A stretch of DNA of 39,653 nucleotides from Methanobacteriota archaeon (GTDB lineage Archaea; Thermoplasmatota; Thermoplasmata; RBG-16-68-12), in NCBI GenBank assembly GCA_020029475.1, contig JAIBJG010000006.1, positions 1 to 39,653 on the forward strand. Direction: 5' to 3'. Made by a program: the position numbers and the translations under genes. The notes below the pieces were generated by a model. It worked only from the letters and a program-made list of their open reading frames with translations. It made no database searches and was not told where the DNA came from. Of this stretch, positions 14,750 through 39,653 are shown one piece after another. Numbering within the stretch: position 1 is the stretch's first letter; every line of letters starts with the position of its first letter.

Positions 14750-14830
14750 GGGACGATGATGATGTTTCAGGGGGGGTCGGTGAAAGTGCAAAAGCGCCTA
14801 AAGCCACTACCCCTTGAGGCCCTCAAAGCC

Positions 14831-33433: not shown

Positions 33434-33449
33434 CGGGTCCCGCCACTGC

Positions 33450-33473
33450 GGGCACTTTCGCCCACCTCCCCCC
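33450..33473 (+). promoter_or_regulatory. Shared upstream element, copy 1
   Basis: GGGCACTTTCGCCCACCTCCCCCC; TAAATA begins 31 nt after CACTTTC. Confidence 0.55.
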
Positions 33474-33524
33474 GGCCCCCGCCTAAATAGCCTCCCGCCC
33501 CATGGAGACGCGGGGAGGAGCCCA

Positions 33525-34325
33525 ATCGACTCCGAGGCTCGAACCGAGGTACTTCCGCAGGAGCTCGTCCAGCTCCCCGAGCGGCGGCTCCTCGCGACGT
33601 CGATCCCCGTCCTGGACCGCCTCCTCGGGGGGTTCGAGGGCGGCCGTATCACGCTGATCGACAGCGGGTCCGACTACGTGTTCCACCTCACGTCCCTCCT
33701 GTGCGTGCGGGCCGTGATGGAGGGGGACGAGGTCGTGTTCGTGGACGGCGGGAACTCCGTGGACCCCCACGGGATCGCCGCGATCGCGCGGCGGGTCGGG
33801 CTCGCGCGGCTCGATGTCCTCCCGAAGATCCACGTCGCGCGGGCGTTCACGTGCCACCAGATGGCGACAATATTATTGGAGCAGCTCGATGAAAAGGTGC
33901 GGGAGGTCGGGGCGGGGCTCGTCGTCCTGTCGTGCCTCCCGGAGCTGTACCTGGACGAGGACGTGCCCCTCTCGGAGGCCCACCAGCTCTTCCTGAGGTC
34001 CGCGCGGGCGATCCGGAGGGCCGCGGAGGAGAGCGGGGCCGTCGTCGTCGCGACGAACGCGGGGCTCGCGAAGCTGTACCGCCGGAAGTCGATCCGCCGC
34101 GTCCTGTACGAGACCGTGGACCGCGCGGTCCGGTTCCAGCACCACCGGGGCGGGCTGAGGATCGTCGTGCCGGACCTCGGGGTCGAGGAGCTGTACCGCC
34201 CCGTGCCGCCGGACCAGACGACCCTGGAGGACTTCGAGTACCCGCTCCCGCGGATCCGGGGCCTCCAGGAATCCGTGGACCCGAAGGAGGTCAAGGCGTC
34301 CGGGTACCTGCGCCTCGGGTGGTAG
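33525..34325 (+). CDS. RecA/RadB-fold protein with degenerate Walker motifs (no canonical start in frame)
   Basis: Manual translation in the frame of track ORF 33678: IDSEARTEVLPQELVQLPERRLLATSIPVLDRLLGGFEGGRITLIDSGSDYVFHLTSLLCVRAVMEGDEVVFVDGGNSVDPHGIAAIARRVG...; strongly GC3-coding from ~33525. Confidence 0.75.
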   Translation: MDSEARTEVLPQELVQLPERRLLATSIPVLDRLLGGFEGGRITLIDSGSDYVFHLTSLLCVRAVMEGDEVVFVDGGNSVDPHGIAAIARRVGLARLDVLPKIHVARAFTCHQMATILLEQLDEKVREVGAGLVVLSCLPELYLDEDVPLSEAHQLFLRSARAIRRAAEESGAVVVATNAGLAKLYRRKSIRRVLYETVDRAVRFQHHRGGLRIVVPDLGVEELYRPVPPDQTTLEDFEYPLPRIRGLQESVDPKEVKASGYLRLGW

Positions 34326-34367
34326 CGGGAACCCTTTTATCCGCCGCGGGGCCTCCGTGGCGGGCCC

Positions 34368-35321
34368 ATGCGGTACTTCGTGACGGGGGCGACGGGTTTC
34401 ATCGGCACCCGGCTCGCACGACAGCTCCGCGAGGCGGGGCACGAGGTCGATGCGATCGCGCGGGACCCCGGGAAGGCGGGGGACCTCGCGAGGATCGGCG
34501 TCCGCCTCCACAAGGGGGACATCACGGACAAGGAATCGATGCGAACTCCGATGGCGGGGGCCGACGGCATCTTCCACCTCGCGGCCTGGTACAAGATCGG
34601 GGAGAAGGACAAGTCTCCCGGGGTGCGGAGCAACATCGAGGGCACCCGCAACGTCCTCGGGCTCATGGAGGAACTCGGGATCCCGAAGGGCGTGTACACG
34701 AGCACCCTCGCGGTCTTCGGGGACACGAAGGGGCAGGTCCCCGACGAGTCGTACCGGCACGACGGCCCGTGGCTGAGCGAGTACGACCGCACGAAGTGGG
34801 TCGCCCACTACGAGGTCGCGGAGCCGATGATGAAGAAGGGGCTCCCGCTCGTCGTCGTGCAACCCGGCGTCACGTACGGGCCCGGGGACCCGAGCCAGAT
34901 GGGGATCGCCCTGCGGGAGTACCTGGAACGGAAGCTCCGCGGTGTCCCCAAGGGGTCAGCGTACTGCTGGGGGCACGTCGAGGACACGGCCGCGGGCCAC
35001 GTCCTCGCGATGGAACGCGGGAGGCCCGGGCAGAGTTACATCATCGCGGGCGAGCCGAAGACGTTCATCGACGCGATCGAGATGGCGGAGCGGATCACGG
35101 GGATCCCCGCCCCGCGGATGCGGCCGTCGCCCGGGTTCGTCCGGTTCCTCGCCGCCCTCACCCGCTCCGAGATGCTCCGCGTGAGCGCGGGGGCGACGTA
35201 CCTGGGGAGCAACGTGAAGGCGAAGCGGGACCTCGGCCTCCGCCACCGCCCCCTTGAGGAGGGCCTCCGGGAGACGCTCCTCGCGGAGATGCGGACCCTC
35301 GGGATCCCGGCACCGGGGTAG
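34368..35321 (+). CDS. NAD-dependent epimerase/dehydratase (extended SDR)
   Basis: MRYFVTGATGFIGTRLARQLREAGHEV...IFHLAAWYKIG...VYTSTLAVFGD...YDRTKWVAHYEV...VVVQPGVTYGPGD. Confidence 0.92.
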   Translation: MRYFVTGATGFIGTRLARQLREAGHEVDAIARDPGKAGDLARIGVRLHKGDITDKESMRTPMAGADGIFHLAAWYKIGEKDKSPGVRSNIEGTRNVLGLMEELGIPKGVYTSTLAVFGDTKGQVPDESYRHDGPWLSEYDRTKWVAHYEVAEPMMKKGLPLVVVQPGVTYGPGDPSQMGIALREYLERKLRGVPKGSAYCWGHVEDTAAGHVLAMERGRPGQSYIIAGEPKTFIDAIEMAERITGIPAPRMRPSPGFVRFLAALTRSEMLRVSAGATYLGSNVKAKRDLGLRHRPLEEGLRETLLAEMRTLGIPAPG

Positions 35322-35325
35322 GGCC

Positions 35326-36270
35326 GTGGACCGGATCGAGGTGACGATCGGGGACATCGAGGAGGCCGTGCCCGTCGTCCAGAAGGTCGCCCGCCGGACG
35401 CCGACGATCCTGCTGGAAGGCCCGGACGGCGAGGTGTGGCTGAAGCTCGAGAACCTGCAGCGCCTCGGCGCGTTCAAGATCCGCGGCGCGTGGAACCGGA
35501 TCTCCCGCCTCACCCCGGAGGAACGGAAGCGCGGGGTGACGACCCTGAGCTCGGGAAACCACGGCCGCGCGGTCGCGTGGTCCGCCCGACGCCTCGGCCT
35601 GCGGTGCGTGATCCGCGTCCCGGAGGGGGCGGCCCCGCAGAAGCTCGCCGCGATCCGAGCCGAGGGCGCGGCGGTGATCCCGATCCCCCGTTCGGAGCTG
35701 GTCCGGGTCCACGGGGAGGAGACGTGGCGGGCGTGGCCCGAGACGTACCTCCCGCCATTCGCACATCCGCTGATGATCGCCGGGAACGGGACCGCGGGCC
35801 TGGAGATCGCCGAGGACGCGCCGAACGCAAAGACGGTCCTCGTGCCCGTCGGAGGCGGGGGCCTCGCAGCCGGAATCGCGATCGCGGTGAAGGCCCGCCA
35901 TCCGGGCGCGAAGGTGTTCGGCGTCCAGCCGGACGGGGCCGCGAGCCTTCCCACCGCCCTGAGGACGGGGCGGGGGTTCCACCTCGAACGACCGGAGACG
36001 ATCGCGGACGGCATCGGGGTCGGGCTCATGTTGCCCGCCATAGTCGAACTCCTCCGGCGGAATCTCGACGGCTGCCTCCTTGTCTCGGACGCCGACATCC
36101 GGGCCTCGATGCGGAGGCTCGCGCTCGATGCGAAGGTCGTTGCGGAACCCGCGGGTGCGGCGTCCCTCGCGGCGTGGTCCCGCCATCGGGAGACCTTGGA
36201 ATCCCCCGTCGTGGCGGTCGTCTCCGGAGGGAACGTCGACCCGGCGCTCCTCTCTGCAGTCCTGAAGTAG
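35326..36270 (+). CDS. PLP-dependent threonine/serine dehydratase family protein
   Basis: VWLKLENLQRLGAFKIRGAWNRI...SSGNHGRAVAWSARRLGL...VLVPVGGGGLAAGIAIAVKARHP...AEPAGAASLAA. Confidence 0.9.
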   Translation: MDRIEVTIGDIEEAVPVVQKVARRTPTILLEGPDGEVWLKLENLQRLGAFKIRGAWNRISRLTPEERKRGVTTLSSGNHGRAVAWSARRLGLRCVIRVPEGAAPQKLAAIRAEGAAVIPIPRSELVRVHGEETWRAWPETYLPPFAHPLMIAGNGTAGLEIAEDAPNAKTVLVPVGGGGLAAGIAIAVKARHPGAKVFGVQPDGAASLPTALRTGRGFHLERPETIADGIGVGLMLPAIVELLRRNLDGCLLVSDADIRASMRRLALDAKVVAEPAGAASLAAWSRHRETLESPVVAVVSGGNVDPALLSAVLK

Positions 36271-36323
36271 GAAGCTCCCCGCCCCGCGGAAAGGCCTATG
36301 TGCCGCGGCGGCCTCGCTCCCGC

Positions 36324-37058
36324 GTGGTCCGGATCGGCGGTTCCACGTACAGCAAGCGGCCCTTCGAGCCCCAGGTCCGCGAGCTGAAGGAGGCGGGGTT
36401 CGACTACTGGGAGTTCGACCTCTCGTGGATCGAGCCGACCCCGAAGCTGCAGGCGGAGGCGACCGCCGTCGTGGGGATCCTTCCCGCGGAGACGGCGCAT
36501 CTCCCGCCACCGAGGTTCACGAAGGAGGACCAGGCGCGGTTCCAGAAGTTCCTCGACATCGCCGCCCCTGTCGGGCCGAGGATCTTTAACGTCCACCTGA
36601 TGCCCGCGAAGTCTGCGGCGGGAGTCCTGCTCGATGTCCGCACCGCGTGGCTCGCGGAGCTCGTCGACGCGGCGCACTCACGTGGGCTGACGATCACCCT
36701 GGAGAACGTGGAGGAACCCCTCTCAATTCTCGCTGAGGTCTTCACGCGGATCCCGAGGATGAAGGCATGCCTCGATATCGGGCACGCATCCCTCGACGGG
36801 GACAACGAGCGGCCCTTACAGCTCCTCTCCTTGATCCGCGACCGCCTCGCGCTCGTCCACGCCCACGACAACCGCCAGGGCCACGGTGAGGCGGGGGACC
36901 TGCATCTTCCGCTCGGAAAGGGAACCATCCGGTTGGAGGGGATTCTCCGCGCCTTGAAGGAGAACGGATTCGACGGCCATGTGACCCTCGAGCTGTTCTC
37001 CGGCATGAAGGAGGAGAAAGCGGAGAGCCTGCGCAGGGCCCGTGTGTGGCTCGTGTAG
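36324..37058 (+). CDS. Sugar phosphate isomerase/epimerase (xylose isomerase-like TIM barrel)
   Basis: ELKEAGFDYWEFDLSWIEPTP...LTITLENVEEPL...MKACLDIGHASLDGDN...LALVHAHDNRQGHGEAGDLHLPLGKGTI...VTLELFSG. Confidence 0.88.
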   Translation: MVRIGGSTYSKRPFEPQVRELKEAGFDYWEFDLSWIEPTPKLQAEATAVVGILPAETAHLPPPRFTKEDQARFQKFLDIAAPVGPRIFNVHLMPAKSAAGVLLDVRTAWLAELVDAAHSRGLTITLENVEEPLSILAEVFTRIPRMKACLDIGHASLDGDNERPLQLLSLIRDRLALVHAHDNRQGHGEAGDLHLPLGKGTIRLEGILRALKENGFDGHVTLELFSGMKEEKAESLRRARVWLV

Positions 37059-37137
37059 TAGTTTCGGCCAACCCCGGGGCAAAGTCCCAAGACCCACCGA
37101 AGATTATATCTATATGCATACAAATATGACAATTCCG

Positions 37138-37377
37138 ATGGCGAAGACGATCGCAATCGCCCAAGATGTCTACGAGCTGCTCTCGAACGACAAAGGGGAT
37201 ACTGAGAGCTTTAGCGACGTGATCCGGCGGTGGCGTCGGAACCGAGGAAGCCTCCTGGACTGCTACGGGTTGTGGGGCGACATCCCGGAGAAGGAGTTCA
37301 AGGAGATGGAGAGCGCAATCTATGGGGCCGACCGGCCCGCATCGAAGGAACTGAAGCGCAGGAAGGTCTGGAGATGA
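37138..37377 (+). CDS. VapB-type antitoxin
   Basis: MAKTIAIAQDVYELLSNDKGDTESFSDVIRRWRRNRGSLLDCYGLWGDIPEKEFKEMESAIYG; AT-rich promoter with TTATATCTATATG; ATGA overlap with the PIN gene. Confidence 0.82.
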   Translation: MAKTIAIAQDVYELLSNDKGDTESFSDVIRRWRRNRGSLLDCYGLWGDIPEKEFKEMESAIYGADRPASKELKRRKVWR

Positions 37378-37772
37378 AGCTGCTCGACACGACCCTCTTG
37401 GTGGATTTTCTCCGGCGGCGGGAGGGTGCACGACGCGTCGTCCTGGCCATGGAGGAGAGGGGGGAGCCGGCGGGGACGACCGAGGTCAATGCATTCGAAC
37501 TCCTGCTCGGGGCGTATCCTCGCGGCCGCCTCGACCCGAAACGACTCGCTCCTGTGGAGAAGTTGCTGAATCGACTCGAGGTACTTCCCCTGACCCGCCC
37601 CGCCTCTATGCAAGCCGCGGAAATCCTGTCGAAGTTGCGCGCCGAGGGCCGGGACATTGGACTCTTGGACGCGCTAATCGCGGGAGTCGCGATCGCATCC
37701 GGGTGCGACACGATCGTTACCCGCGACGAGGGTTTCCGACGAATCTCCGGATTGAAAGTGGAGACCTATTGA
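37374..37772 (+). CDS. VapC-type PIN domain toxin
   Basis: MKLLDTTLLVDFLRRRE...TEVNAFELLLGAY...LLDALIAGVAIASGCDTIVTRDEGFRRI; PIN acidic residues present. Confidence 0.92.
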   Translation: MKLLDTTLLVDFLRRREGARRVVLAMEERGEPAGTTEVNAFELLLGAYPRGRLDPKRLAPVEKLLNRLEVLPLTRPASMQAAEILSKLRAEGRDIGLLDALIAGVAIASGCDTIVTRDEGFRRISGLKVETY

Positions 37773-37795
37773 GCACTTTCGGCCATCCCTCCCCC
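37772..37795 (+). promoter_or_regulatory. Shared upstream element, copy 2
   Basis: AGCACTTTCGGCCATCCCTCCCCC right after the vapC stop; TTGATAGG about 29 nt after CACTTTC. Confidence 0.45.
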
Positions 37796-37841
37796 GCTCC
37801 CGTTGATAGGCCGTGGAGCCTCTCTCGGCGGGAGAGCCGCC

Positions 37842-38093
37842 ATGGGCCGCACCGTGCCGACGTACCGCCTCCATACGGAGTCGATCATCAACGAGTGGAT
37901 GGACTACCGCCGCGCCCTCCGGGAGAAGGACCGCGAGGTGTTCGACGAGCTGATGTACAAGGCCCGCCTCCATTCGAGCGCGGGGAGCTACACGGCCCGC
38001 CTCGACCCCGTCGCGACGATGTTCCTGTCGATCCTGCTGGAGATCGAGAAGGAGATTCGAGAGTCGAAGGCGCGGCTCGGCCCCACCGGCTAG
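37842..38093 (+). CDS. DUF8156-like small archaeal protein of unknown function
   Basis: MGRTVPTYRLHTESIINEWMDYRRALREKDREVFDELMYKARLHSSAGSYTARLDPVATMFLSILLEIEKEIRESKARLG; recalled similarity to conserved archaeal MGRTVPxxR... proteins. Confidence 0.7.
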   Translation: MGRTVPTYRLHTESIINEWMDYRRALREKDREVFDELMYKARLHSSAGSYTARLDPVATMFLSILLEIEKEIRESKARLGPTG

Positions 38094-38131
38094 GATTCAC
38101 AATTATCTCTAGGAAGGGCATACGCAATCTG

Positions 38132-38683
38132 ATGCATGGGAGTCCGGATTGGAGGGAACGCACAAGGAAAGTTCTCTACCCCGCGGACCCGGATGATGCC
38201 GACACCCTCACCGAGGGGATTTGGGTTCTCCCCCTGGTGGGCGATGAAAACGAGGGGACGGGAATCATTCTCAACACCTCCGTCTCCGGGGAAACGCGTT
38301 TCCAGACAGGTGATCTCGCGACGTGGATTTCCGCGAACCCGGCCACGCAGAAAGCGGAAATCGTATCCTCCATGCGGACCGACTGGGACTTGGCGGAGCC
38401 GCTTGAGGCCTTCCTCGCCCGGGCGGGAATCGCCCTCGCCCAAGCGTACCACGCCGAAAACGAGTCGCGACGGAAGGAGCGCGTCAAGACGATGGCGATT
38501 CTCCGTTGCGAGCTCTGCGGCGAACCGGGAATCGGTCGTCTCCTTCCAGACGAAGTGTGGCATGCGATTATCCCCGCGGAGCACCAATCCAAGGCGCTTT
38601 GCGATTCCTGCATCAATCGGTTCGAACTGGCGTCGCGGGAACGCGAGACCCCACGGTCGCGATGGGCCTTCTGGAGACGATGA
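38132..38683 (+). CDS. Hypothetical protein with C-terminal CxxC..CxxC
   Basis: MHGSPDWRERTRKVLYPADPDDADTLTEGIWVLPLVGDENEGTGIILNTS...; CELCGEPGIGRLLPDEVWHAIIPAEHQSKALCDSCINRFE. Confidence 0.6.
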   Translation: MHGSPDWRERTRKVLYPADPDDADTLTEGIWVLPLVGDENEGTGIILNTSVSGETRFQTGDLATWISANPATQKAEIVSSMRTDWDLAEPLEAFLARAGIALAQAYHAENESRRKERVKTMAILRCELCGEPGIGRLLPDEVWHAIIPAEHQSKALCDSCINRFELASRERETPRSRWAFWRR

Positions 38684-38706
38684 AGCGCACCCCGTCTGAT
38701 GCCGTG

Positions 38707-38728
38707 GGCACTTTCACCCACCTCCCCC
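38707..38728 (+). promoter_or_regulatory. Shared upstream element, copy 3
   Basis: GGCACTTTCACCCACCTCCCCC; TTAA begins about 30 nt after CACTTTC. Confidence 0.55.
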
Positions 38729-38783
38729 GCCCTCCCCCTTAACCGCCCGCCATGAAATCCTCATTCCAAGGGGGAGTCGTCCC

Positions 38784-39653
38784 ACGCAGGGCTGGCTCAT
38801 CGACGCGTATCCGGACTACGAGAAGGACACGATCGTCCTGTGGCTCTGGAACCAGGACGGGGCCCACCGCATCGAGGACAAGGCCTTCGAGACGTCGTTC
38901 TACATCCGACCCCCGCCAGCGGAGATCCCGGAGGTCCGGAAGCGGCTGGAGATCCTCGACCAGGTGAAGGAGGTCCGCGAGGTCGAGCGGCGGGTGGACA
39001 TCGGGAGCGAGGACACCGTGCCCGTCCTCGAGGTCGTCCCCCGCCACTACCGGGAGCTCCAGGACATCGCGAAGATCGTGGACTCGAACGGCGGGTACCA
39101 CGACTATGCCCTGTACAACGTGGACCTCCGGTTCGGCCAGCGATACTGCATCAAGCACGCGATCTTCCCGTTCGGCCTCCTGTGGACGAACAACGGCCGG
39201 TGGCGGGCGGAGGAGGAGCAGTTCGCCCTCGACTACCCGATCCCGCCGCTGCGGCCCGCCCTGCTCGACCTTCGCGTGGACACGCCCCTCGGAATCCCGC
39301 GGTTCCAGGACAAGCTCCTCAGCGCGCGGGTCGGCGACATCGAGGTGGGCGGGAGCGAGTCCGAGATTCTCGAGAGGCTGAACGCCGCAGTGAAGGACCT
39401 CGACCCGGACGTCGTCCTCACGGACAACGGGGACGCGTTCCTCATGCCGTACCTCGCGAGGAAGGCCGCGGAGCACGCGGTCCCCCTGCAGCTCGGGAGG
39501 GACCCGGACCGGTTCGTGGAGAGGCGGGGAAAATCGTACTTCACGTACGGGAAAATCGTGTACAAGCCCGGGCAGTACCTCCTGAAGGGGCGGCTCCACC
39601 TGGACCGCGGGCACTTCGCGTTCCGGGAGGCCGCGATGGCGGGGCTCGCGGAG
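38784..39653 (+). CDS. Family B DNA polymerase, N-terminal/exonuclease region, exonuclease motifs degenerate (partial, runs off right edge; start unresolved)
   Basis: Manual translation: TQGWLIDAYPDYEKDTIVLWLWNQDGAHRIEDKAFETSFYIRPP...YHDYALYNVDLRFGQRYCIKHAIFPFGLLW...PALLDLRVDTPLGIPRFQDKLLSA...DLDPDVVLTDNGDAFLMPYLARKA. Confidence 0.8.

Follow-up and report, generated by a model that had tools for sequence, protein, structure and literature searches.

Promoter motifs linked to the response to DNA damage are already known from archaea. In Halobacterium sp. NRC-1 the 11-mer TTTCACTTTCA is found upstream of the TATA box of radA1, top6B, vng17 and vng280, all of which are induced by ultraviolet B (UV-B) light. 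Comparable sequences lie upstream of radA in other haloarchaea and in Methanospirillum; the Halobacterium motif was published in 2008 without a factor (PMC2556686). In Sulfolobus the hexamer ANTTTC, which reads ACTTTC in upsE and upsA, occupies positions -44 to -39, and UV-inducible promoters require it (PMC5817253). In Sulfolobales, Orc1-2 binds the ANTTTC damage element (PMC9738581). In searches confined to open-licence papers, no promoter element of replication or repair genes was found described for Thermoplasmata, and neither class-wide conservation nor a more replication-centred regulon turned up there. Here we report on such an element in a stretch of 39,653 nucleotides from a Thermoplasmata archaeon (contig JAIBJG010000006.1 of assembly GCA_020029475.1; the whole stretch is referred to as the window), where it precedes the genes for a RadB-like recombinase, a conserved protein of 83 residues and a family B DNA polymerase. 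Judged from its sequence, distribution and position, the element is almost certainly a regulatory site of a replication/repair regulon, and very likely it is the binding site of a sequence-specific transcription regulator that governs replication, recombination and repair genes in Thermoplasmata archaea.

An earlier note on this DNA had proposed three copies of the element at a constant distance from a TATA-like sequence. All three were recovered with deviations of at most one base (the copies of GCACTTTC begin at positions 33452, 37773 and 38708), and the spacing from CACTTTC to the TATA-like sequences TAAATA (33484), TTGATAGG (37804) and CTTAACC (38739) amounts to 30-31 nt. When the window was searched with the 21-base consensus and up to three mismatches, four matches were obtained, against 0.03 on average in 100 shuffled sequences. 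The fourth match (14769-14789, minus strand) is weak, lacks a TATA box at the right distance and is probably due to chance.

The family consensus of the aligned copies, GRGYACTTTCRSCCAYCTCCCCC, describes a box of about 20 bp that is directional and non-palindromic and consists of A[C/T/G]TTTC, a purine (R), about three variable bases and a C-rich run. Throughout 85 aligned sites the A, the TTT and the C of the hexamer are invariant, and position 2 is C, with T or G in distant relatives. Information content in the same set equals background outside about -5 to +17, with the exception of a separate A+T peak at the position of the TATA box, which lies at a near-constant distance and usually begins 24-30 nt downstream of the hexamer. 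The C-run ends up about 9 nt from the TATA box and the box as a whole about 10 nt above the region formed by the TFB recognition element (BRE) and TATA. From this spacing the hexamer would be located near -57 to -52 relative to the predicted, not mapped, start site, and the box roughly 50-57 nt upstream of the expected start of transcription. Pairing of the sequences flanking copies 1 and 3, which had also been pointed out in the earlier note, did not turn out to be a family feature, since in most copies full pairing between the upstream consensus G(A/G)G(C/T) and (G/C)CC(A) is impossible. The pairing is not conserved over the aligned sites, and a stem-loop at the element was rejected.

The core CACTTTCA upstream of a TATA box is common to this element, in which it takes the form CACTTTC[A/G], and to the Halobacterium UV-B motif, and both share radA and top6B as targets. 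On the other hand, the window copies carry GRGY in front of ACTTTC and lack the 5' TTTC repeat, so that they do not contain the full 11-mer, the published motif does not include the C-rich half, and the regulon outlined here additionally comprises polB, mcm, rpa and radB-like genes. In 214 kb of class-level loci there are only two occurrences of the exact 11-mer; both are at radA elements, in two distant members of the class, and this ties the Halobacterium motif to the Thermoplasmata element. The Sulfolobales element and the one described here both have an A[N]TTTC hexamer that is not palindromic and lies upstream of BRE/TATA. The latter differs in its predicted position, which is about 13 nt further upstream, in the presence of a second conserved C-rich half and in its targets, which are replication and repair genes here but pili, Ced, tfb3 and dpo2 there. 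Taken together, the element and the matching motifs of the two other lineages point to a widespread archaeal switch.

A scan of the genome to which the window belongs (1.94 Mb) with the 21-mer and up to three mismatches yielded 20 matches and none for the reversed pattern. About 17 of the copies in this genome are good ones, and the claim that the element is restricted to the three genes of the window therefore does not hold. In addition, a sequence-only profile (R2) was built from 61 sites and compared with a control, R3, in which the columns of R2 are reversed. At a cut-off of E<=0.01, R2 produced 18 matches in the genome of origin; of the 40 genomes searched, 34 had matches, 162 in total, and R3 produced none in the same 40 genomes; the building sites match R2 by construction, and the plain-pattern scan and the footprints described below are independent of it. 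The genome scan thus gave a positive result, with the element proving one-directional and linked to TATA.

Phylogenetic footprinting was likewise positive at the orthologous polB, radB-like and radA promoters across many families. At polB the element is present in all 13 named relatives for which the promoter is covered, 64-82 nt before the polB start region. Copy 1 is kept upstream of the radB-like gene in six relatives (L118, L125, L130, L140, L143 and L173) and copy 2 is kept in relatives upstream of the 83-residue open reading frame (ORF). A strict pattern, ANTTTC-R-N3-5-CYC, the occurrence of which was compared with the opposite strand and with background windows, is present on the coding strand at 13 of 23 promoters of the radB-like operon (0 on the other strand, 0.4% of background windows) and at 17 of 29 radA promoters (again 0, and 1.1%). 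Several of the promoters missed carry close variants (GCTTTCGG.., ATTCGG..) instead. Loci with a G+C content of 40% still have the element, and its C-run is therefore not an effect of composition. Among polB loci at the phylum level support is scattered (L225, L226; L228 is doubtful).

In distant families of the class, the genes for the RadB-like protein, the 83-residue ORF and PolB form one operon (radB-like in 23 and the ORF in 25 of 27 loci), whose single element precedes the radB-like gene and so lies about 1 kb above polB. In the lineage of the window this operon is broken up, each of its genes being preceded by a copy of the element at the same distance. All three such copies are found in the window, those of the ORF and polB in the named metagenome-assembled genomes L088-L091 and L093-L098, and those of the radB-like gene and the ORF in L081. 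The split, with an element at every gene, accounts most simply for the three close copies in the window and constitutes a natural experiment. The ORF has no Pfam match, and its structure was predicted with low confidence. The features of the window are compiled in Table 1.

Table 1. Element copies, TATA boxes and downstream genes in the window (R2, sequence-only profile)
Feature	Position	Strand	Evidence or remark
Element copy 1 (GGGCACTTTCGCCCACCTCCCCCC)	33449..33473	+	R2 match 26.3 bits, E 3.4e-7 in window
TATA box of radB-like promoter (CTAAATAG)	33483..33490	+	A+T peak at same offset, 85 aligned sites
RadB-like recombinase gene	33525..34325	+	Pfam Rad51 1e-8; NCBIfam RAD51/RadA 1.9e-9
Element copy 2 (AGCACTTTCGGCCATCCCTCCCCC)	37770..37795	+	R2 match 25.0 bits, E 9e-7
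TATA-like box (TTGATAGG)	37804..37811	+	Sequence and offset
Conserved ORF of 83 aa (MGRTVPTYR...)	37842..38093	+	Middle gene of ancestral radB-like/ORF/polB operon
Element copy 3 (GGGCACTTTCACCCACCTCCCCC)	38705..38729	+	R2 match 25.2 bits, E 8e-7
TATA-like box (CTTAACC)	38738..38744	+	Sequence and offset
Family B DNA polymerase gene, cut by window end	38784..39653	+	Pfam DNA_pol_B_exo1 2.5e-7; NCBIfam type B polymerase 5e-19

In the genome of origin the element precedes the genes for PolB, MCM (via a small zinc protein), RadA (L031), the RadB-like recombinase, a Rad3/XPD-type helicase, the large subunit of exonuclease VII and the 83-residue partner ORF, as well as those for some small conserved proteins not assigned to any family and for five paralogues of about 115 residues. 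Sites in the genus, family and order involve these orthologues again and, in addition, RPA and Top6B (L142, NCBIfam 1.1e-58). According to our own tally, about 36 of 62 sites in relatives lie in front of the radB/polB partner ORF or of a gene for replication, recombination or repair; homing-endonuclease-like, transposase-like and radical SAM targets are less secure, having been recognised by eye or through weak matches. The enrichment for replication and repair genes, for which the earlier note had asked a test, is borne out insofar as most annotated downstream genes belong to these categories. Ribosomal or other housekeeping promoters were not seen among the element matches.

Near-cognate start codons are proposed for two of these genes. 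The radB-like gene would start with ATC at 33525, after GGGGAGGAG. Of the six relatives named above, five keep the ATC that follows GGGGAGGA in this gene, and L173 has ATG at the same place. For polB the alignment of the start region with relatives led to ACG at 38784, after GGGGGAG; at this place, ACG (nine), ATC (L089), CTG (L092) or ATG (L099, L100) is present in L088-L100. The near-cognate polB codons of the window and its relatives are all one base away from ATG, and an ATG at 38752 of the window is out of the polB frame and above the expected start of transcription. The conservation of such starts in two genes of one regulon suggests that the regulon may be subject to translational control as well.

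The element is best read as an archaeal DNA-damage/replication activator site in its Thermoplasmata form. A putative regulator would bind the box upstream of BRE/TATA and, once bound, would act as an activator that helps TFB/TBP, with DNA damage or replication stress as the presumed inducing signal. That the site serves an activator and not a repressor is probable because it leaves BRE, TATA box and start site free, and its near-constant location about 10 nt above BRE would fit an activator assisting TFB/TBP. Archaeal repressors usually cover the TATA box, BRE or the start site. A functionally LexA-like repressor that holds the genes low and departs upon damage would agree with the SOS-like gene content and with an extra palindrome around TATA in a few promoters, but it appears unlikely as the box is not palindromic and lies upstream of BRE/TATA rather than over them. 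Furthermore, substitution of ACTTTC in Sulfolobus abolished promoter activity and did not raise it (PMC5817253). A fixed position just above BRE/TATA, with the C-run so close to TATA, could also be expected of a constitutive, extended BRE-like promoter element that is read by TFB or a TFB paralogue and merely sets a high basal level. We consider this quite improbable, since the element is selective, its targets share a common pathway, no housekeeping promoters were seen among the matches, and the box is set apart from the BRE position. The proposal in the earlier note of a transcription-factor site instead of a mobile repeat is supported by an element that is one-directional, tied to TATA, conserved at orthologous promoters across many families and mostly directed at replication and repair targets. 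The spread of a mobile repeat together with a promoter might be invoked because several copies precede a multi-copy paralogous family with palindrome-flanked genes and others precede homing-endonuclease-like and transposase-like ORFs. It was nevertheless rejected as extremely improbable: the copies have only the box in common, with unrelated flanks and no shared sequence or ends beyond it, throughout the class the element resides, with TATA downstream, at single-copy promoters that are orthologous, and viral contigs are no richer in it than in the control pattern in a meaningful context (four exact matches versus two with the reversed pattern; none of the former was accompanied by a convincing TATA box and gene).

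With regard to the signal, the match of the core CACTTTC[A/G] to both the Halobacterium UV-B motif and the Sulfolobales ANTTTC suggests damage or replication stress, and by analogy with these systems we lean towards DNA damage over cell-cycle timing as the main one. Eukaryotic E2F/MBF and bacterial LexA regulons provide examples of one element coordinating replication and/or repair genes. The likeness to them is one of working only, as the DNA site differs and the box is asymmetric; the palindromic operator of the LexA/SOS box has no counterpart in the consensus. An E2F/MBF-like S-phase element, which would raise replication genes once per cycle without any damage response, would explain that the core replication genes for PolB, MCM and RPA are among the most conserved targets. 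It is rendered doubtful by the presence of RadA, the RadB-like protein, exonuclease VII and the Rad3/XPD-type helicase, all encoded by repair genes, by the link of the matching Halobacterium and Sulfolobus motifs to UV and by the absence of the full element from every orc1/cdc6 copy.

Several observations weigh against a replication/repair regulon governed by a damage-responsive activator site. At radA the element is absent from two or three families of the class (L265, L272, L273). About half of the copies in the genome of origin precede small proteins without assigned function and the regulon is therefore not purely one of replication and repair. Unlike in Sulfolobales, the orc1/cdc6 genes lack the full element in their own promoters: it is found at neither of the two copies in the genome of origin, and 13 orc1/cdc6 loci gave no match to the model. 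After UV treatment, Sulfolobus represses replication genes and does not induce repair genes (PMC2246294), and the damage reading is therefore not simply transferable.

An Orc1/Cdc6-family regulator, as in Sulfolobales, can be put forward as a tentative candidate for the reader of the element. Equally speculative is the notion that the Thermoplasmata CACTTTC, the haloarchaeal and Methanospirillum TTTCACTTTCA and the Sulfolobales ANTTTC represent a single ancestral cis-element with one conserved type of regulator, possibly Orc1/Cdc6-like. If both applied, a relative of the replication initiator would time repair as well as replication genes. The archaeal origin recognition box (ORB) also has a TTTC-containing half beside a G/C run. 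The element differs from it by residing in promoters and not at an origin, and the ORB was rejected as an explanation: its dyad TTCCANTGGAA is present at two places in the genome, neither of them at an element.

The element bears on the question whether euryarchaea possess a dedicated repair/replication regulon and what reads it. Our finding supplies a class-wide element with a precise consensus, links motifs that have been described separately in three archaeal lineages and renders the identity of the regulator directly testable. The list of targets takes in several conserved proteins of unassigned function.

Some further observations concern orc1/cdc6 and the neighbourhood of individual copies. 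In family f1 only a bare AACTTTC is conserved in front of orc1-1 (L104/L113, L105, L106, L107, L109), which we regard as weak evidence for the element. It is followed about 40 nt later by a conserved A/T-rich block of the ATAAA type, and this arrangement is possibly part of a replication origin. A toxin-antitoxin pair at 37138-37772 of the window, composed of a VapB antitoxin (Pfam 6.7e-13) and a PIN-domain toxin (1.3e-21), ends right at copy 2.

The paralogues of about 115 residues (L006, L007, L010, L012, L020; in relatives L060, L082, L114-L116, L119, L126, L135 and L141) have no Pfam match. A fair AlphaFold2 model shows a ferredoxin-like fold that is weakly Cas2-like, and searches with the model returned no significant PDB match. 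Their promoters often contain a palindrome around or near TATA that differs between paralogue groups and of which, at some loci, a second copy follows the gene. ORFs resembling homing endonucleases (LAGLIDADG by eye) or transposases also have the element in their promoters (L139, L145, L147, L132). The pieces tested gave no Pfam or NCBIfam match; it looks as though selfish genes had taken over a host repair promoter. A conserved microprotein of about 43-50 residues (SWEEVYASFGCSV...) is encoded directly 3' of the element in L008, L083, L123, L074 and L172 and is possibly a small protein induced by damage or replication. The small zinc protein encoded upstream of MCM (L005, L077) shows similarity to the zinc domain at the C terminus of B12-dependent ribonucleotide reductase (NF006417, 2.3e-8).

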